64,000 nucleotides of DNA. Source: an uncultured Paracoccaceae bacterium. Lineage in GTDB: Bacteria; Pseudomonadota; Alphaproteobacteria; Rhodobacterales; Rhodobacteraceae. The stretch spans positions 124,001-188,000 of the forward strand of contig CANNFA010000001.1 in NCBI GenBank assembly GCA_947503765.1, in the 5' to 3' direction. The notes under the pieces were generated by a model, which was given only the letters and a program-made list of their open reading frames with translations, was not told where the DNA came from and did no database searches. Positions 29,981 to 58,104 of the stretch are shown in pieces (position 1 is the first letter of the stretch; every line of letters starts with the position of its first letter). The translations under genes and the position numbers were made by a program.

Positions 29981-30054
29981 GCGGGTGTAGCTCAATGGTA
30001 GAGCAGGAGCTTCCCAAGCTTAAGACGAGGGTTCGATTCCCTTCACCCGCTCCA
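29981..30054 (+). tRNA. tRNA-Gly, anticodon CCC
   Basis: Complete cloverleaf with encoded CCA: acceptor GCGGGTG paired with CACCCGC, D arm GCTC/GAGC, anticodon loop TTCCCAA (anticodon CCC reading GGG), T arm GAGGG-TTCGATT-CCCTT, discriminator T then CCA. The anticodon stem has a G-A mismatch at its top pair and a G-T pair. It ends 9 bp before the convergent pgi stop. Confidence 0.95.
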
Positions 30055-49874: not shown

Positions 49875-50447
49875 CTAGTCCGGCCAGAAGCCGACTTCGC
49901 CGCCCCTGGCAGCCGCTTCGGTCAGCAGATCGAACATGTAGCGCGCGGCAGAGCGGAAGCACAGCACCTCGAACACGGTATCATCGCGCATCCAGATCGC
50001 CGCCGGCACCTGCGCCAGCCGGGTGCGCCGGAACGTGCCGGGGGTGAAGGCGCCGGGCGACAGGTCGGCGGGGGTCAGCTTGGCCAGCGCCTCGCGCGCA
50101 TCCAGGCCGGTGACGCGGAACAGGCTGCGGGCATCGGACATGTCGGCGACAAGGTGGTGTTCGCCGGCCAGGAAATGGCCAAGTTTTCGCGCAATTTCCG
50201 GCGCTTGCGCGTAAGAGCTCATGAGAAGCAGCTCGTCCGGCGCCATCCAGCAGACCGCGGCCTCGCCCGCATCGGTGGCCCGCCAGGTGCCGGGAAGGTC
50301 CAGTGACAGCGCGTCTTTCACCGCCGCTTTCACCGCGCCGGACCCCAGATCGCCGCGCAGCGCGATCATCCCGCGCGGCGGCATCTCCTCGACCCGGGCG
50401 AAGCCCTCGGATACCGCGCCGCCCAGGGCGCTTGCCGGCTCAGACAT
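49875..50447 (-). CDS. soxG: sarcosine oxidase subunit gamma
   Basis: 190 residues, GcvT-like fold of the small gamma subunit: MIALRGDLGSGAVKAAVKD, CWMAPDELLLMSS, ADMSDARSLFRVTG and LAQVPAAIWMRDDTVFEVLCF. Last gene of the operon; its start overlaps the soxA stop by 8 nt. Together with alpha, beta and delta it oxidises sarcosine to glycine, methylene-THF and H2O2. Confidence 0.93.
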   Translation of the reverse strand: MSEPASALGGAVSEGFARVEEMPPRGMIALRGDLGSGAVKAAVKDALSLDLPGTWRATDAGEAAVCWMAPDELLLMSSYAQAPEIARKLGHFLAGEHHLVADMSDARSLFRVTGLDAREALAKLTPADLSPGAFTPGTFRRTRLAQVPAAIWMRDDTVFEVLCFRSAARYMFDLLTEAAARGGEVGFWPD

Positions 50448-53400
50448 TCTGCTTCTCCCCGTCCGGGTCGTAGAACACCGTGGACACGATGCGCGCTTCC
50501 ACCTCGGTGCCGTCCAGCCGGGCGAACCGGATCACCTCGCCCATCCTGTCGGGGCCGCGATGCACCAGCCCCATGGCGATCCCCCGGCCCAGCACCGGCG
50601 AATAATAGGTCGAGGTCACGCGCCCCTGCGTGCGCCGCTGGCCATTGGCGTTCTCGCCCTCGGCCAGCGCCAGCGCGCCATCGGGCAGGACCGAGCCGTC
50701 AAGCGTCTCCAGTCCCACCAGTTTCCAGCGGTCCGGGTCGGTCATATGCGCACGCGCCTGCGCGCGCTTGCCGATATAATCGTCCTTCTTCTTCGAGATC
50801 GCCCAGTTCAGCCCCAGATCCTGCGGAATCACGGTGCCGTCGGTCTCGTCCCCGATCATGATGAAGCCCTTTTCGGCCCGCAGCACATGCAGCGCCTCGG
50901 TCCCGTAAGGCATCGCACCGAATTCGCGCCCGGCGAGGGCCAGCGCATCCCAAAGCGCACGGCCCTGCGCCGCCTTGACCGCGATCTCGAACGACAATTC
51001 GCCGGAAAAGCTGATGCGGAACACCCGCACGTCGAACCCGCCAAGCGTACCGTTCGCCCAGGACATGAACGGCATGGCGTCCTTCGACAGGTCCATCCCG
51101 CCCAGCAGATCCAGCACCTCGCGCGCCCTGGGGCCGACCACGCCGATCTGCGCGTATTGCTCGGTCAGGTTGGCGGTGAAAACCTGCCAGTCCCACCATT
51201 CGGTCTGAAGCCATTCCTCCATGTGGGCATGGATCGCGTCGGCGCCGCCGGTGGTGGTGTGGCACAGCCATTCATCCTCGGACAGACGGGCCACCACGCC
51301 GTCATCGATCAGGAAACCGTTCTCGCTGCACATCAGCCCGTAGCGGCAGCACCCGACCTTCAGGCTCGACATCATGTTCGTATACATCATGTCGAGGAAC
51401 CGGCCCGCATCCGGGCCCTTGACCAGGATCTTGCCCAGCGTGGATGCGTCAAGCAAACCAACGGCTTCGCGGGTGTTCTTTACCTCGCGCATGACCGCGT
51501 CTTCGACGCTTTCGTCGCCTCGCCGGTAGCAATAGGGCCGCCGCCACTGGCCCACCGGTTCCCAATGCGCGCCGTTGATGCTGTGCCAGTCATGCATCGC
51601 CGTGCGGCGCAGCGGCTGGAACAGATCGCCCCGCGCCTCGCCGGCGATGGAGCCGAAGGAAATCGGCGTATAGGGCGGGCGGAAGGTGGTCGTGCCGACC
51701 TCGGGGATGGGTGCATTCAGTGCATTAGAAAGCACCGCCAATCCGTTGATGTTGCTCAGCTTCCCCTGATCTGTCGCCATGCCCAGCGTGGTGTAGCGTT
51801 TCGTGTGCTCGACGCTCTCGTAGCCTTCGCGCGCGGCAAGCTGCACATCGGACACCTTCACGTCGTTCTGGTAATCCAGCCACATCTTGGCGCGCAGCTC
51901 GGGCCCCGCGCCCTGCGGCATGATCCAGACCGGCAGGATCGGCGCGGGGGTCTCGGACTCGGCCGCGGCATCCGCACCGGCATCGGCCAGCACCTCGGCC
52001 GTGCTCATCGCGCCATTCGCCGCCCCCGCCACGCGCACGAAGGCGGCCCCGTCAGCGCCGGTCGGCGCGCGGTCCGGGTCGGGGCGAAAGAACGCCTGCG
52101 CCTCGTCCCAGACCAGCTTGCCGCCGCAATGCGACCACAGGTGCACGGCCGGCGACCAGCCGCCCGACATCGCCACCGCATCGCATCCGATTTCCTCGAG
52201 CACCGCGCCCTCGCCCGCCTGGCCGGTGATCGCCACGCCGGTCACTCGCGCGCGGCCCTTGACCGATGCGATGGCGCGCCCGGTCTCGACCCTTATGCCG
52301 GCATCGCGCACCTGCTGGATCAGCGCGCTTTGCGGCGCGGTACGCGCGTCGATCACGGCGGGCACCTGCAACCCGGCCGAGTGCAGCGCCAGCGCCGTGC
52401 GATAGGCGTCGTCGTTGTTGGTCACGATCACCGTGCGGTCGCCGGGCGACACCGCCCAGTTCACCACGTAATCGCGCACCGCGCCGGCCAGCATCACACC
52501 GGGCAGATCGTTGCCGGCAAAGGACAGCGGCCGCTCGATGGCGCCCGTGGCCACCACGACCTGCCGCGCGCGGATCTTCCACAGCCGGTGGCGCGGGCCG
52601 TCCGCGTCCGGCGCGTGATCGGTCAGCCGCTCATAGGCCAGCACGTAGCCGTGATCGTAGATGCCGGCCCCCATGCAGCGGGTGCGCATCCGCACATTGT
52701 CTTTCACGTCAAGCTCTTGGACGGCGTTCTTCACCCAGCCTTCGGGATCCGCACCGCCGATCCGGCCGCCATCGACCGGGGCACGCCCGCCCCAATGCGC
52801 GGTCTGCTCGATCAGCAGCACCGTGCCGCCCGCATCCGCCGCGCGCCGCGCCGCCGTCAGCCCGGCAAGGCCGCCGCCGATCACCAGCGTGTCGACATGG
52901 GCGTGAAAATGTTCGTAGCGGTCGGCGTCGCGCTCCTTCGGCACCCGCCCCAGCCCGGCGGATTTGCGGATCACCGGCTCGAACAGGTGCTTCCAGGCCG
53001 CGCGCGGCTGCATGAAGGTCTTGTAGTAGAACCCCGCCGGCAGGAACCGCGCGGCGTAATTGTTCACCACGCCCACGTCGAATTCGAGGCTGGGCCAGTG
53101 GTTCTGGCTGTCCGCGCGCAGCCCGTCATACAGCTCCTGCGTGGTGGCGCGCTGGTTCGGCTCGAACCTCGCCCCCTCGCCGACATTCATCAGCGCGTTC
53201 GGCTCTTCCGCGCCCGAGGCCACGACGCCGCGCGGGCGGTGATACTTGAACGAGCGGCCCATCAGCACCTGCCCCTCGCCCAGCAGCGCCGAGGCCAGCG
53301 TGTCGCCCTCGAAGCCGCGCATGTGCCGGCCGTTGAAGATGAAATCCAGCGCCCGGTTCCGGTTCAGAAGCCGCCCGCCCTTTGCCAGCCGTGTACTCAT
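50440..53400 (-). CDS. soxA: sarcosine oxidase subunit alpha
   Basis: 986 residues. N-terminal ferredoxin-like domain (FNGRHMRGFEGDTLASALLG; FKYHRPRGV), central NAD-binding domain (VDTLVIGGGLAGLTAARRA), and C-terminal GcvT/aminomethyltransferase domain (about 600-986) that receives formaldehyde onto tetrahydrofolate. Length and domain order match heterotetrameric enzymes. ATG at 53400 overlaps the soxD stop (ATGA). Confidence 0.96.
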   Translation of the reverse strand: MSTRLAKGGRLLNRNRALDFIFNGRHMRGFEGDTLASALLGEGQVLMGRSFKYHRPRGVVASGAEEPNALMNVGEGARFEPNQRATTQELYDGLRADSQNHWPSLEFDVGVVNNYAARFLPAGFYYKTFMQPRAAWKHLFEPVIRKSAGLGRVPKERDADRYEHFHAHVDTLVIGGGLAGLTAARRAADAGGTVLLIEQTAHWGGRAPVDGGRIGGADPEGWVKNAVQELDVKDNVRMRTRCMGAGIYDHGYVLAYERLTDHAPDADGPRHRLWKIRARQVVVATGAIERPLSFAGNDLPGVMLAGAVRDYVVNWAVSPGDRTVIVTNNDDAYRTALALHSAGLQVPAVIDARTAPQSALIQQVRDAGIRVETGRAIASVKGRARVTGVAITGQAGEGAVLEEIGCDAVAMSGGWSPAVHLWSHCGGKLVWDEAQAFFRPDPDRAPTGADGAAFVRVAGAANGAMSTAEVLADAGADAAAESETPAPILPVWIMPQGAGPELRAKMWLDYQNDVKVSDVQLAAREGYESVEHTKRYTTLGMATDQGKLSNINGLAVLSNALNAPIPEVGTTTFRPPYTPISFGSIAGEARGDLFQPLRRTAMHDWHSINGAHWEPVGQWRRPYCYRRGDESVEDAVMREVKNTREAVGLLDASTLGKILVKGPDAGRFLDMMYTNMMSSLKVGCCRYGLMCSENGFLIDDGVVARLSEDEWLCHTTTGGADAIHAHMEEWLQTEWWDWQVFTANLTEQYAQIGVVGPRAREVLDLLGGMDLSKDAMPFMSWANGTLGGFDVRVFRISFSGELSFEIAVKAAQGRALWDALALAGREFGAMPYGTEALHVLRAEKGFIMIGDETDGTVIPQDLGLNWAISKKKDDYIGKRAQARAHMTDPDRWKLVGLETLDGSVLPDGALALAEGENANGQRRTQGRVTSTYYSPVLGRGIAMGLVHRGPDRMGEVIRFARLDGTEVEARIVSTVFYDPDGEKQNV

Positions 53401-53726
53401 GTGAAATCCCTCCAGCGCCAGCCCGGCCGCTTCGCCGAGATCGCGGCAAGCAGGTCGGCGGGCGGCTCGGTCACCTGCGCGGGATAGGTGCCGAACACCT
53501 CCATCGTGACGGTGCAGCGGGCGGCGTGAAACCACTTGCCGCAGCCGGCCGCGTGACGCCAGCGCTCGAAATGCACGCCGCGCGGGTTCTCGCGGACGAA
53601 CAGATAGTCGTGGAACGCGTCCTCGGACGCCTCCGGCCCGCGGCGCACCAGATGCGCCTCGCCGCCGGGGGCAAGCTCGGTCTCGTCGGCATCCACGCCG
53701 CAATAGGGGCAGTGCAGGATCAGCAT
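53397..53726 (-). CDS. soxD: sarcosine oxidase subunit delta, regenerated copy
   Basis: 109 residues, complete: zinc-ribbon cysteines in CPYCG and CGKWFHAARC, FERWRHAAGC. The first 24 codons are one copy of a 72-bp repeat. Its native leader was separated by the inserted gene, so it now starts behind insert-derived sequence; the best ribosome site is AAAGGA about 13 nt before the ATG, weaker than the original. Delta binds zinc and closes the heterotetramer. Confidence 0.93.
   Translation of the reverse strand: MLILHCPYCGVDADETELAPGGEAHLVRRGPEASEDAFHDYLFVRENPRGVHFERWRHAAGCGKWFHAARCTVTMEVFGTYPAQVTEPPADLLAAISAKRPGWRWRDFT
53655..53726 (-). repeat. 72-bp direct repeat, copy adjoining complete soxD
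   Basis: Identical at all 72 positions to 54185-54256, offset 530 bp. On the minus strand it is exactly soxD codons 1-24 (from the start ATG to the GCG of Ala24). Bases on both sides differ between the copies. Confidence 0.95.
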
Positions 53727-54184
53727 CAGATTATTGCTTTCCTTTCAAAATGTTCATTTGTTCACCTAGCCCCAGAAGCCCTTGGTCAGCAGTATCAGAA
53801 CCCCAAAAACTGTAAGAGAAAAAACATACACCTTTTTTAGGTAGCCACTCAAGAAAACTCGATCTCTTAGAGGCCAGCGAATATTTGGTGACGGCTCATT
53901 GGAGTTATTCAAAAATATTTGATCCAACACATACTCTTCATCAGCTCTGGATGTTGCCGCAAAAGCAGCTACCATTGCGACATAGCCGTATACACCAATA
54001 TGGCCATCCTCAAGAAAACTCGCAATTGTCAACACAATAGGCGCTACACCCGCCAGAAAAACCGCCTCCAAGAAGGCGCCTTTTCGTTCTTTGCGTAGTT
54101 TCCTAATTGCGTCGTGTTGAAAGAACCTATCTCGTTCTTGAATTAGTCTAATACGCTTCGAGATTTCTTCCGCTGCCATCAGAA
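53727..54184 (-). mobile_element. 458-bp AT-rich insert between the soxD repeats (single-gene cassette)
   Basis: Lies between two perfect 72-bp copies of the soxD 5' end. My hand count gives 198 G+C of 458 (about 43%), far below the surrounding sequence, so it is foreign. It holds one gene (53766-54179), a 39-nt tail before the regenerated soxD and no recombinase, terminal inverted repeats or RNA I can identify. Insertion followed by, or coupled to, duplication of the first 24 codons left a functional soxD. The mechanism is unknown: recombination with a circle carrying the soxD start, or a long target duplication, would both give this structure. Confidence 0.8.
53766..54179 (-). CDS. inserted small membrane protein of unknown function
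   Basis: 137 residues: basic amphipathic N-terminus (EEISKRIRLIQERDRFFQHD, about 4-34), helices at about 36-56 (AFLEAVFLAGVAPIVLTIAS), 61-77 and 117-133 (VYVFSLTVFGVLILLT), with a polar loop between the second and third (DEEYVLDQIFLNNSNEPSPN). No known domain recognised. The ATG is at 54179; the preceding stop of the truncated soxD frame shares its A (TGATG), so translation should be coupled to the soxD leader. Codon use is AT-rich, unlike neighbours. Small membrane proteins of conflict systems have a similar shape, but nothing here proves such a role. Confidence 0.82.
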   Translation of the reverse strand: MAAEEISKRIRLIQERDRFFQHDAIRKLRKERKGAFLEAVFLAGVAPIVLTIASFLEDGHIGVYGYVAMVAAFAATSRADEEYVLDQIFLNNSNEPSPNIRWPLRDRVFLSGYLKKVYVFSLTVFGVLILLTKGFWG

Positions 54185-54256
54185 CGCCTCGCCGCCGGGG
54201 GCAAGCTCGGTCTCGTCGGCATCCACGCCGCAATAGGGGCAGTGCAGGATCAGCAT
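54179..54256 (-). pseudogene. truncated soxD 5' end acting as leader peptide
   Basis: Codons 1-24 of soxD plus one new Phe codon and TGA: a 25-residue frame (MLILHCPYCGVDADETELAP...) that keeps CPYCG but lacks the rest. It retains what must be the original ribosome site, CAGGAG 7 nt upstream. Its stop overlaps the ATG of the inserted gene. Whether the peptide has a role is unknown; it at least delivers ribosomes to the insert gene. Confidence 0.85.
54185..54256 (-). repeat. 72-bp direct repeat, upstream copy
   Basis: Second copy of soxD codons 1-24, identical to 53655-53726, attached to the native soxB-side upstream sequence. Confidence 0.95.
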
Positions 54257-54298
54257 GGCAAGGCTCCTGTCGGGCAAGAGGCGGGGCTGGCCGCGCGG

Positions 54299-54565
54299 TC
54301 AGTCGGCCGCCTCCGGCACGCCGGCGACCGGGGCGTCGGGGCCTGCGCCGCTGGCCGGGCCGGTATGGGGCTGTGCCGAAATCTCGGCCTCGATCGCGGC
54401 TTCGGGGCCGGTATCGGCCGGCGCGCCGCCCGGATGGGTATCGGCCGTGCCATCGCCGCCGGCCGGCCCGAAAAACACCAGTGCCAGCAGCATGAGCGCC
54501 GCGACCCCGACGAGCCAGAACCAGACGTCGCGTTTCCTGCGGGCGGATTTTCCGGGCTCGAACAT
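54299..54565 (-). CDS. small membrane-anchored acidic protein between soxB and soxD
   Basis: 88 residues from the ATG at 54565 with AAGGAG 9 nt upstream. Basic start (MFEPGKSARRKRDVW), one helix (FWLVGVAALMLLALVFFG), then a Gly/Ala/Pro/Asp-rich acidic tail outside the membrane. It sits between soxB and the soxD repeat, not part of the standard soxBDAG set. Function unknown. Confidence 0.7.
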   Translation of the reverse strand: MFEPGKSARRKRDVWFWLVGVAALMLLALVFFGPAGGDGTADTHPGGAPADTGPEAAIEAEISAQPHTGPASGAGPDAPVAGVPEAAD

Positions 54566-54692
54566 GGCGGAGGCTCCTTTCGCCCCGCACCACCTAGGCC
54601 GTGCGCCCCTGCCCGGCCAGTCGCCGGCCCCGCGCCTGAGCAAGACCCCGCCGGAACCGGCCCGCCCGCGTGCGTGCCGCAGCCGTACCCGG

Positions 54693-55937
54693 TCAATGCG
54701 CCACCCCGGCGGCAACGCTTTCATCGACGAAGCGCCCCTCGCGGAACCGGTCCAGCCCGAACGCCGCGGCCAGCGGCGAGGCGCCCTTTGCCATCAGTTC
54801 CGCCATCGCCCAGCCCGATCCGGGGATCGCCTTGAACCCGCCGGTGCCCCAGCCGGCATTGATGAAACACCCCTCGACCGGCGTTTTCGACAGGATCGGC
54901 GAGCGGTCGCCGGTCATGTCCACGATCCCGCCCCATTGGCGCAGCATCTTCAGCCGGCTGATGATCGGGAAGGTTTCCACCAGCGCGCGCACGGTTTCCT
55001 CGATATGGTGAAAGCTGCCGCGCTGGGTGTAGTTGTTGTAGCCGTCCGCGCCGCCGCCGATCACCATCTCGCCCTTGTCGGACTGGCTCATGTAGCCGTG
55101 CACGGTGTTGGCCATCACCACCACGTCCATGCAGGGCTTGATCGGCTCGGACACCAGCGCCTGCAAGGCCACGCTCTCGATCGGCAGCCGAAAGCCGAGC
55201 ATGTCGGCCAGCACGCCCGAATGACCCGCCACCACGATGCCCAGCTTGCCGCAGCCGATATCGCCGCGGGTGGTGGTCACGCCCCGCACGCGGCCGCCCT
55301 CGGTGCGGATGCCCGTCACCTCGGTGCGTTGCAGGATGTGCATCCCCATGTCGGAACAGGCCCGCGCATAGCCCCAGGCCACCGCGTCGTGCCGCGCCGT
55401 GCCGCCGCGCGCCTGCCACAGCGCGCCGAGAACGGGATAGCGCGGCCCGCCCACATGGATGATCGGGCACAGTTCCTTGACCCGCTCGGGGGTGATGAAT
55501 TCGGTCGTCACCCCCTGAAGCGCGTTGGCATGGGCCGTGCGCTTCCAGCCGCGCACCTCGGCCTCCGTCTGGGCCAGCATCATCACGCCGCGCGGGCTGA
55601 ACATCAGGTTGTAGTTCAGGTCCTGGCTGAGCGTCTCGTAGAGGCTGCGGGACTTCTCGAAGATCGCGGCGGACGGATCCTGAAGGTAGTTGGAACGGAT
55701 GATCGTGGTGTTGCGCCCGGTATTGCCGCCGCCAAGCCACCCCTTCTCGATCACCGCGACATTGGTGATGCCGAAATTCCGCCCCAGGTAATAGGCCGTC
55801 GCCAGCCCGTGCCCGCCGGCACCGACGATCACCACGTCATAGCGCGATTTCGGCTCGGGCGCGGCCCAGGCGCGGGGCCAGCCGCGATGCTGGCGCAGCG
55901 CCTCGCGCGCGATGGCGAAGGCCGAATAGCGTTTCAT
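54693..55937 (-). CDS. soxB: sarcosine oxidase subunit beta
   Basis: 414-residue flavoprotein (DAO fold). N-terminal VVIVGAGGHGLATAYYLG binds FAD; GGGNTGRNTTIIRSNY includes the region for covalent FMN attachment; C-terminal NAGWGTGGFKAIPGSGWAMA closes the FAD site. Oxidises sarcosine; first gene of the operon. Divergent from ccmI with a 225-bp gap. Confidence 0.95.
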   Translation of the reverse strand: MKRYSAFAIAREALRQHRGWPRAWAAPEPKSRYDVVIVGAGGHGLATAYYLGRNFGITNVAVIEKGWLGGGNTGRNTTIIRSNYLQDPSAAIFEKSRSLYETLSQDLNYNLMFSPRGVMMLAQTEAEVRGWKRTAHANALQGVTTEFITPERVKELCPIIHVGGPRYPVLGALWQARGGTARHDAVAWGYARACSDMGMHILQRTEVTGIRTEGGRVRGVTTTRGDIGCGKLGIVVAGHSGVLADMLGFRLPIESVALQALVSEPIKPCMDVVVMANTVHGYMSQSDKGEMVIGGGADGYNNYTQRGSFHHIEETVRALVETFPIISRLKMLRQWGGIVDMTGDRSPILSKTPVEGCFINAGWGTGGFKAIPGSGWAMAELMAKGASPLAAAFGLDRFREGRFVDESVAAGVAH

Positions 55938-56162
55938 GGGCGAATCCCCCCGAGGCTAGGCATTTCCTTTTGCAGCGGGCAAAGCGCCCTGCCAAGGCGT
56001 TGCGCGGCATTTGCCCCCGTTTTTGCGACATCCGCTCCGGGGCGTGTCGCCGCAGACCGCTCAAGAACCCGTGGGGGGCCGCGAATGGGGGTTTTGCGCG
56101 CGGGCCGCAATGGCTAGATGGTCGCCGGGGGCAAGGATCGCCCCCGAAGACGCGGGGGACGC

Positions 56163-57389
56163 ATGGAAAGCTGGGCATTCTGGGCCGTTGCGGGGCTGAT
56201 GACGCTGGCGGTTGCCGCGCTGCTGCTGCTGGCGATGCTGCGCGGCCGCACCGGGCCGGCCGCCGCCGCCACCTACGACATGCGCGTCTACCGCGACCAG
56301 CTGCGCGAGGTGGACCGCGACCTTGCCCGCGGCACCGTGTCCGAAGCCGAGGCCGAGCGTCTGCGCACCGAGATCTCGCGCCGCCTGCTCGAGGCCGACC
56401 GCGCCGCGCAGGGCAAAGCCGCCGGGGCGCGCGCGCCGCGCGGGCTGTCGCTGGTCTTTGCCGGGCTGACGGCGGCGGTCCTGGCGGGCGCCTTCGGGCT
56501 CTACTGGGTGCTCGGCGCGCCGGGCTATCCCGACCTGCCGCTGGCCGCGCGCATCGCCTCGGCCGAACAGGCGCGCGCCGCCCGCCCCGGCCAGGACGCG
56601 GCAGAGACGGCAGCAGAAGCGAGCCGCCCCGCCCCGCCCGAGATCGACCCCGAATTCGCGGATCTGATGGCGCGGCTGCGCGAAGCGGTGGCCGAGCGGC
56701 CGGGCGATCTGCGCGGCCTTGCGCTGCTGGCGATGAACGAGGCGCGGCTGGGCAATTTCCGCGCCGCCTACGAGGCGCAGGAGGCGCTGATCGCGGCGCG
56801 CGGCGACGCGGCCACGGCCGACGATTACACCGATCTTGCCGACCTGCTGATCGGTGCCGCGGGCGGCTATGTCTCGCCCCGCGCCGAGGCGGCGCTGGAA
56901 ACCGCGCTGGATCTGGACCCGAAACACACCGCGGCGCGCTACTATTACGGGCTGACCTTCGCGCAGACCGGCCGGCCCGACCTCGCGTTCCGGCTGTGGC
57001 GCGCGCTGCTGGCGGAGTCGCCCCCCGATGCCCCCTGGGTGCCGGTGATCGAGGCCGAGATGCCCGCGCTGGCCGCCGCCGCCGGCGAACGCTGGAGCGC
57101 GGACGAGGCGCGCGGCCCCACCGCCGCCGATATCGACGCCGCCGCCGATATGGCACCCGAGGACCGCGCGGCGATGATCCGCGCCATGGTCGACGGCCTG
57201 TCGGACCGGCTGGCGATCGAGGGCGGCCCGCCCGAGGACTGGGCGCGCCTGATCTCGGCGCTGGGCGTGCTGGGCGAGACGGCCGACGCCTCCGCCATCT
57301 GGACCGAGGCGCAGACGATCTTCGCCGATGCGCCCGGCGCGCTCGAGACGGTGCGCGCGGCCGCGATCGCGGCGGGGGTGGCCGAGTGA
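56163..57389 (+). CDS. ccmI: c-type cytochrome biogenesis protein CcmI
   Basis: 408 residues. Helix 1 (WAVAGLMTLAVAALLLLAML), cytoplasmic loop YDMRVYRDQLREVDRDLARG typical of CcmI, helix 2 (LVFAGLTAAVLAGAFGLYWV), then periplasmic TPR-like region (about 165-330) that binds apocytochrome c. GGGGGAC is just before the ATG. Separate from ccmCDG 16 kb away. Confidence 0.9.
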   Translation: MESWAFWAVAGLMTLAVAALLLLAMLRGRTGPAAAATYDMRVYRDQLREVDRDLARGTVSEAEAERLRTEISRRLLEADRAAQGKAAGARAPRGLSLVFAGLTAAVLAGAFGLYWVLGAPGYPDLPLAARIASAEQARAARPGQDAAETAAEASRPAPPEIDPEFADLMARLREAVAERPGDLRGLALLAMNEARLGNFRAAYEAQEALIAARGDAATADDYTDLADLLIGAAGGYVSPRAEAALETALDLDPKHTAARYYYGLTFAQTGRPDLAFRLWRALLAESPPDAPWVPVIEAEMPALAAAAGERWSADEARGPTAADIDAAADMAPEDRAAMIRAMVDGLSDRLAIEGGPPEDWARLISALGVLGETADASAIWTEAQTIFADAPGALETVRAAAIAAGVAE

Positions 57390-57862
57390 TCCACGAGGAT
57401 ATCGCCGATTTCGCCGCCGCCCTGCCCCCGATGCGCGCCGTCGCGGGGCTCGACCTCGGCACCCGGACCATCGGCGTCGCCGTCTCCGACCGGCTGCTGT
57501 CGGCGGCCACGCCGCTCCGGACGATCCGGCGGGTCAGGTTCGGCCAGGACGCGGCACAGCTTCTGGACATCGCGGCCGAGCGCGAGCTTGGCGGCCTGGT
57601 GCTGGGCCTGCCGGTCAACATGGACGGCACCGAGGGCCCGCGCGCCCAGTCCACCCGCGCCTTCGCGCGCAACCTCGCCCGGCTGACCGACCTGCCGATC
57701 GCCTTCTGGGACGAACGGCTGTCCACAATTGCCGCCGAGCGCGCCCTGCTCGAGGCCGACACGTCGCGCCGCCGCCGCGCCGAGGTGATCGACCACGTCG
57801 CCGCCGGCTTCATCCTGCAAGGCGCGCTCGACCGGATCCGGCATCTGGGGCAGGCCCGATGA
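57386..57862 (+). CDS. ruvX: Holliday junction resolvase-like YqgF/RuvX
   Basis: 158 residues from a GTG overlapping the ccmI stop (GTGA). RNase H-like fold: GLDLGTRTIGVAVSD, LGLPVNMDGTEGPRAQ, FWDERLSTIAAERAL and the final DHVAAGFILQGALD with the last catalytic Asp. In E. coli it processes 16S rRNA 5' ends. Confidence 0.93.
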   Translation: MIHEDIADFAAALPPMRAVAGLDLGTRTIGVAVSDRLLSAATPLRTIRRVRFGQDAAQLLDIAAERELGGLVLGLPVNMDGTEGPRAQSTRAFARNLARLTDLPIAFWDERLSTIAAERALLEADTSRRRRAEVIDHVAAGFILQGALDRIRHLGQAR

Positions 57863-58104
57863 CGGATGGCCGCCCCCCGCCGCACGCGCCGGCCTCGCCC
57901 TGCGTGAATATCTGCGTGATCCACCCCGAGACGCGGATCTGCACCGGCTGCCTGCGCAGCATCGAGGAAATCTCCGCCTGGCCGAAACTCGCGGCAGAAG
58001 ACCGCCGCGCCATCCTCGACGCCCTGCCCGCCCGCGCCCCGCTGCTGCAGCAGCGCCGGGGCGGGCGCGCCGGGCGCATCAAGCGCGGCAGGGCAGCGGA
58101 CTGA
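57859..58104 (+). CDS. DUF1289 family protein
   Basis: 81 residues. Four-Cys cluster in SPCVNICVIHPETRICTGC followed by LRSIEEISAW, the DUF1289 consensus, likely a small metal-binding (Fe-S or zinc) protein; role unknown. ATG overlaps the ruvX stop (ATGA). Basic Arg-rich C-terminus. Confidence 0.9.
   Translation: MTDGRPPPHAPASPCVNICVIHPETRICTGCLRSIEEISAWPKLAAEDRRAILDALPARAPLLQQRRGGRAGRIKRGRAAD

Follow-up and report, generated by a model that had tools for sequence, protein, structure and literature searches.

A low-GC single-gene insert bracketed by a duplicated soxD start in the sarcosine oxidase operon of an uncultured Paracoccaceae bacterium

Introduction

How can a single foreign gene come to lie within an operon, with no mobility gene beside it, and leave the gene into which it was placed unbroken? 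The question is raised by the sarcosine oxidase locus of an uncultured Paracoccaceae bacterium, studied here within a window of 64,000 nucleotides, the whole stretch of DNA that was analysed. A first-pass annotation, made from the letters of the sequence, described a one-gene cassette inside soxD flanked by a perfect duplication that regenerates the host gene, and proposed that it could belong to a kind of minimal mobile or hitchhiking gene not described before. We examined the anatomy of the locus, its likely expression, the cargo protein, the corresponding site in relatives and the recurrence of the arrangement elsewhere, and weighed the explanations of its origin against one another. The features of the locus are listed below in order of transcription; the flanking genes are those that we take to be soxB and soxA.

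54693-55937, minus strand: soxB (sarcosine oxidase beta subunit), the upstream gene, with a match to PF01266
54299-54565, minus strand: small 88-aa ORF between soxB and soxD, without a Pfam family
54185-54256, minus strand: proximal 72-bp copy (soxD codons 1-24), an exact repeat adjoining the native upstream sequence
54179-54256, minus strand: truncated soxD frame of 24 soxD codons, Phe and TGA, the TGA overlapping the cargo ATG
54177-54183, minus strand: TCTGATG, the first insert-edge heptamer
53727-54184, minus strand: low-GC insert of 458 bp (GC 0.432), single copy in the genome
53766-54179, minus strand: cargo ORF P0001, 137 aa, an orphan and probable helical membrane protein
53724-53730, minus strand: TCTGATG, the second insert-edge heptamer, made of 4 insert bases and the soxD ATG
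53655-53726, minus strand: distal 72-bp copy (soxD codons 1-24), the start of the complete soxD
53397-53726, minus strand: complete regenerated soxD, 109 aa (sarcosine oxidase delta subunit)
50440-53400, minus strand: soxA (sarcosine oxidase alpha subunit), the downstream gene, with matches to GCV_T, SO_alpha_A3 and Fer2_4

The 88-aa ORF shows a hydrophobic segment by eye, and the insert holds two further, overlapping frames on the plus strand (51 and 59 aa).

Results

Structure of the insert and its flanks

The structure is indeed present in the assembly. As first described, an exact 72-nt direct repeat (53655-53726 and 54185-54256) recurs with a period of 530 bp, and both copies, counted on the minus strand from the A of the ATG, are soxD codons 1-24. 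The two copies show 0 differences over 72 positions, which places the 95% upper limit of their divergence at approximately 4%, and nowhere else in the window are 24 nt or more repeated directly and exactly within 8 kb. The GC content of the intervening 458 bp agrees with the earlier hand count (198/458) and is clearly low relative to the 0.693 of the window. By codon position, GC is 0.54/0.37/0.42 in the cargo ORF versus 0.69/0.53/0.88 in soxD, and when the insert was resampled with a first-order Markov model, 18 of 2000 samples contained a stop-free stretch as long as that of the cargo.

The distal copy does restore a full soxD, a complete frame whose product matches PF04267 over residues 4-82 (7.2e-29), and the proximal copy keeps the native ribosome site, with GGAG shortly before the ATG as in congeners. 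The operon was also described as otherwise intact, and SoxB, SoxA and SoxD all show their expected domains. From the proximal copy, translation reads MLILHCPYCGVDADETELAPGGEAF-stop, a frame of 25 residues, and the TGA of this truncated soxD overlaps the cargo ATG as TGATG. Upstream of that ATG the cargo frame contains no stop as far as the insert edge, so that the cargo may be a 5'-truncated form of a longer donor gene. The heptamer TCTGATG, noticed after the fact, stands once at each insert edge at a distance of 453 bp, and an edge match of at least 7 was obtained in 37 of 5000 shuffled inserts. These heptamers may reflect a repeated or circular 453-bp donor unit, two similar gene leaders, or chance; in so far as they suggest a unit with defined ends, they count against a one-off capture.

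Predicted expression of the cargo and of the regenerated soxD

Stop/start overlaps such as TGATG are a usual layout for coupled translation, and coupling is plausible for the cargo on the strength of this arrangement. The cargo would be transcribed along with the sox operon. Ribosomes loaded at the native soxD site would translate the 25 residues, terminate at TGATG and reinitiate at the cargo ATG, aided by the GAGG in soxD codons 23-24, and SoxD would then be translated from a site inside the insert. Duplex energies, computed with an assumed ribosomal tail sequence and counted as weak evidence, were -6.5 for the 20 nt upstream of the cargo ATG (as strong in 10.8% of 964 minus-strand ATGs), -6.6 for the native soxD site (9.2% of the same ATGs), and -4.9 for the regenerated soxD site, where the pairing comes from AAGGA inside the insert (31.7%). 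The regenerated soxD may thus be somewhat weaker than the gene was before insertion.

A promoter scan of 53400-54800 returned 0 sites, which fits expression from the operon. The terminator scan returned 3 sites on both strands, compared with 1.7 (sd 1.4) by chance. Two terminator-like sites lie inside the cargo on the minus (gene) strand, at 54078-54063 and 54051-54039, and, if real, would hinder transcription through the operon and so speak against it.

The cargo protein

P0001 has no match above cut-off in Pfam or NCBIfam, the best Pfam candidate being DUF2975 at 16.6 bits against a cut-off of 27; its best PHROG match has an E value of 0.14, and PADLOC returned none. The protein had been described as a three-helix membrane protein. 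Its membrane nature is probable, whereas the count of three helices comes from a single-sequence fold model of low confidence (pLDDT 62.4, pTM 0.30) and hydropathy gives two strong segments; P0001 is therefore best described as probably helical and membrane-bound. A role in immunity or exclusion, as a small membrane protein, would be a guess.

In whole-genome searches, with its own genome counted, P0001 was tallied in 1 of 195, 2 of 394, 3 of 390, 1 of 385 and 1 of 398 genomes, in sets drawn from relatives and from the family, order, class and phylum; these sets overlap, and the E limit was 0.01 for the sets of 394 and 390 genomes and 0.001 for the other three. A match in genome G048 (E 0.0046) forms part of a 403-aa multi-helix protein and was rejected by eye, and a weak match in G664 (E 0.0018) spans 52 residues of a 365-aa frame. 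Pattern scans of bacterial and archaeal contigs and of viral contigs, which demand eight identical residues and hence reach close relatives only, produced no relative. Among plasmids and phages there was no relative of the protein by tblastn and no match to the insert DNA by distant blastn, and PDB sequences contained no credible relative. Comparison with a viral fold library gave 395 matches up to E 10, the best of which (E 0.57) is not meaningful.

Mobility functions at the site

The first-pass annotation excluded a tRNA, a transposase and inverted repeats, and in each respect we concur: the sole tRNA of the window lies at 29981-30054, the cargo matches no transposase or integrase family in Pfam, NCBIfam or PHROGs, and no inverted repeat of at least 12 nt spans the insert with one arm at each end. 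An Rfam search of 50000-58000 likewise returned no family. With neither a transposase nor such inverted repeats, and with a duplication of 72 bp that is not short, the insert does not resemble a classical transposon or insertion sequence; nor, at 458 bp and with a main ORF (137 aa) that matches no family, does it resemble an integrase-borne island. The genome yielded 0 matches to Ku (PF02735) in a search whose controls detected the family in 1 of 14 genomes, Bacillus subtilis. This result disfavours classical end joining, and Ku-dependent capture of the insert would be disfavoured with it.

The site in relatives and the age of the insertion

soxD is present in all five genomes searched in the genus (the present one included), and its start is uninterrupted in the four congeners. 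For a wider comparison, the best 80 of 129 loci from a pattern scan were combined with those of the congeners into 84 rows, two of which are duplicates (L036 = L004 and L042 = L005). A second soxD 5' copy was found at 0 of these 82 distinct loci by a search that, as a positive control, recovers the second copy in the window. The relatives examined thus have the empty site, and soxD is rejected as an insertion hotspot among these loci. Relatives sharing the structure with diverged repeats would have refuted a recent event, and this test did not refute it. Additional soxD hits in L050, L072, L087 and L101 cover residues 60-100, 55-103, 22-63 and 10-75, respectively; they are weak and do not represent the soxD start.

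The congeners differ from the 72-bp copies at 10, 13, 16 and 13 of 72 positions, and locus L034 differs at 6 of 72. From these comparisons the insertion is apparently lineage-specific and recent. Either it took place well after these relatives had branched off, or recombination has kept the copies alike, in which case their identity could reflect recombination rather than youth.

Recurrence of the insert or of its anatomy

The insert occurs once in its own genome, which implies that its template would be foreign or lost. No copies were present at several sites or in several of the genomes searched, as would characterize a self-mobile single-gene cassette. A scan of 2.824 Mb from five genomes, comprising 1.224 Mb of the insert-bearing genome (31% of it, window included) and 400 kb each of G004, G003, G007 and G059, was restricted to exact repeats of at least 24 nt, so that old, diverged cases would escape it; it returned three isolated direct-repeat pairs with unlike flanks, the soxD pair among them. 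The other two, in G004 and of 31-34 nt, are palindromic or of low complexity and are not second cases. A candidate in G003 (L153, 2278-3533) was rejected as a tandem gene duplication; this low-GC stretch contains two neighbouring 165-aa genes whose DNA is 76-89% alike.

Contig 1 of G000 also carries 381-bp repeated units (L028, 2601-3361 and 3730-4501), more than 95% alike in parts, which may belong to a gene for a repetitive protein. The same contig has further islands of low GC (0.46-0.47) at L014 401-1300, L015 6901-8050 and 8151-8550, L024 551-1200, and L027 16001-16300; none of those in L014, L015, L024 and L027 has an exact direct repeat of at least 26 nt.

Discussion

Origin of the insert

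We consider that foreign DNA was captured here once and recently, in an event of the kind termed insertion with long target duplication, and assign this explanation a probability of roughly 0.7. On the best reading, a one-off illegitimate joining or template switching event spared soxD and placed the cargo in the sox operon. At the start of soxD, approximately 458 bp of foreign DNA would have been joined to DNA ends or to a stalled fork, and rejoining would have been offset by 72 bp, such that host DNA resumed 72 bp upstream and soxD codons 1-24 were doubled. Two routes could produce this outcome: a staggered break around the foreign DNA followed by fill-in, or a template switch that led into foreign DNA and returned 72 nt upstream of the point of departure. 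The cargo could, in turn, be excised scarlessly if the two 72-bp copies recombined.

Direct repeats at both ends are also the exact anatomy of a single crossover, and Campbell-type integration, in which a small circle bearing the cargo together with 72 bp of soxD underwent a crossover with the chromosomal gene, would account for the identity of the copies too. Such a circle would, however, require a prior event that attached soxD sequence from this very strain to the cargo; moreover, 72 bp is short for efficient recombination, and the plasmid and phage collections contain no match to the protein or to the insert DNA, all of which leaves this explanation unlikely. We regard as very unlikely the proposal that a larger site-specific element once integrated at the soxD start and has since lost its integrase and other genes, with the insert as what is left of it. 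Long, identical, target-restoring repeats are typical of integrase elements and count in its favour; against it stand the absence of a second soxD 5' copy from all 82 relative loci, a cargo without an integrase family match, and the lack of an Rfam family in 50000-58000 or of a nearby tRNA. An assembly or contamination artefact might be suspected in a genome assembled in 30 contigs, given that the insert is found nowhere else. Yet the contig that bears it is 833,813 bp long, a chimera would need to duplicate the soxD start exactly and still leave the host gene clean, and a 72-bp repeat is shorter than usual reads, so that, judged from the assembly alone, an artefact is quite unlikely.

There remains the first-pass proposal of a new class, that is, of a minimal mobile gene that enters gene starts and spares the host gene. 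A one-gene unit, exact regeneration of the host gene, the TGATG overlap and the edge heptamers would all suit such an element. The insert is nevertheless a single copy without a mobility function, its protein is an orphan, and no second exact-repeat example appeared in the 2.824 Mb scanned, 1.224 Mb of which is its own genome. Beyond the anatomy itself the proposal finds no positive support, and we do not uphold it; a new class is highly improbable. Equally improbable is its more specific form, in which orphan membrane genes would spread as bare one-gene units that duplicate the starts of operon genes and are translated by coupling, with TCTGATG marking the ends of a 453-bp repeat or circle.

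Relation to known systems

Capture with a long target duplication, our preferred explanation, has precedents. Insertion with long target duplication is reportedly to be credited to Nobusato et al. 2000 and Furuta et al. 2010. In the passages cited, long target duplications of variable length, of the order of 100 bp, accompany the insertion of some restriction-modification systems (PMC3874152), a long target duplication around restriction-modification units is described again in a passage of a second paper (PMC1643837), and the same statement is repeated in excerpts of three others (PMC3031569, PMC4978471, PMC2749054). The soxD locus shares with such insertions a cargo of lower GC, direct repeats copied from the target and of the order of 100 bp (here 72), a target that is unduplicated in relatives (all four congeners), ends unlike those of a transposase-borne element, and no link to a known mobile element. 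It differs in that its cargo is one orphan gene rather than a restriction-modification system, although such cargo, usual in the cases known to us through passages of citing papers, is perhaps not defining, and P0001 matches no family. It differs further in that the 5' end of a host gene is duplicated here, such that the gene remains whole, and in that the truncated copy ends in a stop codon with which the cargo ATG overlaps.

Homology-facilitated illegitimate recombination, proposed in the cited passage as a way in which immunity genes pile up (PMC5361080), resembles the present case, so far as the excerpts describe it, in joining foreign DNA without homology on at least one side (PMC5361080, PMC3240628). 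As described there, it needs anchor homology on one side, and for the soxD insert no donor was found in its own genome, relatives, plasmids or phages. Transformation-induced merodiploidy in pneumococcus, in which duplications form during transformation, is similar in that, according to the passage cited, host sequence is doubled during DNA uptake and an intact copy is kept (PMC3784515); the duplications described in that passage are, unlike the one at soxD, much larger (PMC3784515). Literature on single-gene insertions or template switching contained no matching case among the matches listed. The locus is accordingly best filed as an insertion with long target duplication whose cargo is an orphan and whose translational layout is tidy.

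The soxD locus is a clean case, apparently a young one, of a lone foreign gene entering a bacterial operon without mobility genes, leaving the host gene unbroken and arriving with a start site ready for translation. A structure that the cited passages describe around restriction-modification genes would hereby be extended to an orphan gene. The locus gives a testable picture of orphan gene arrival, in which the duplication makes an otherwise disruptive insertion tolerated.
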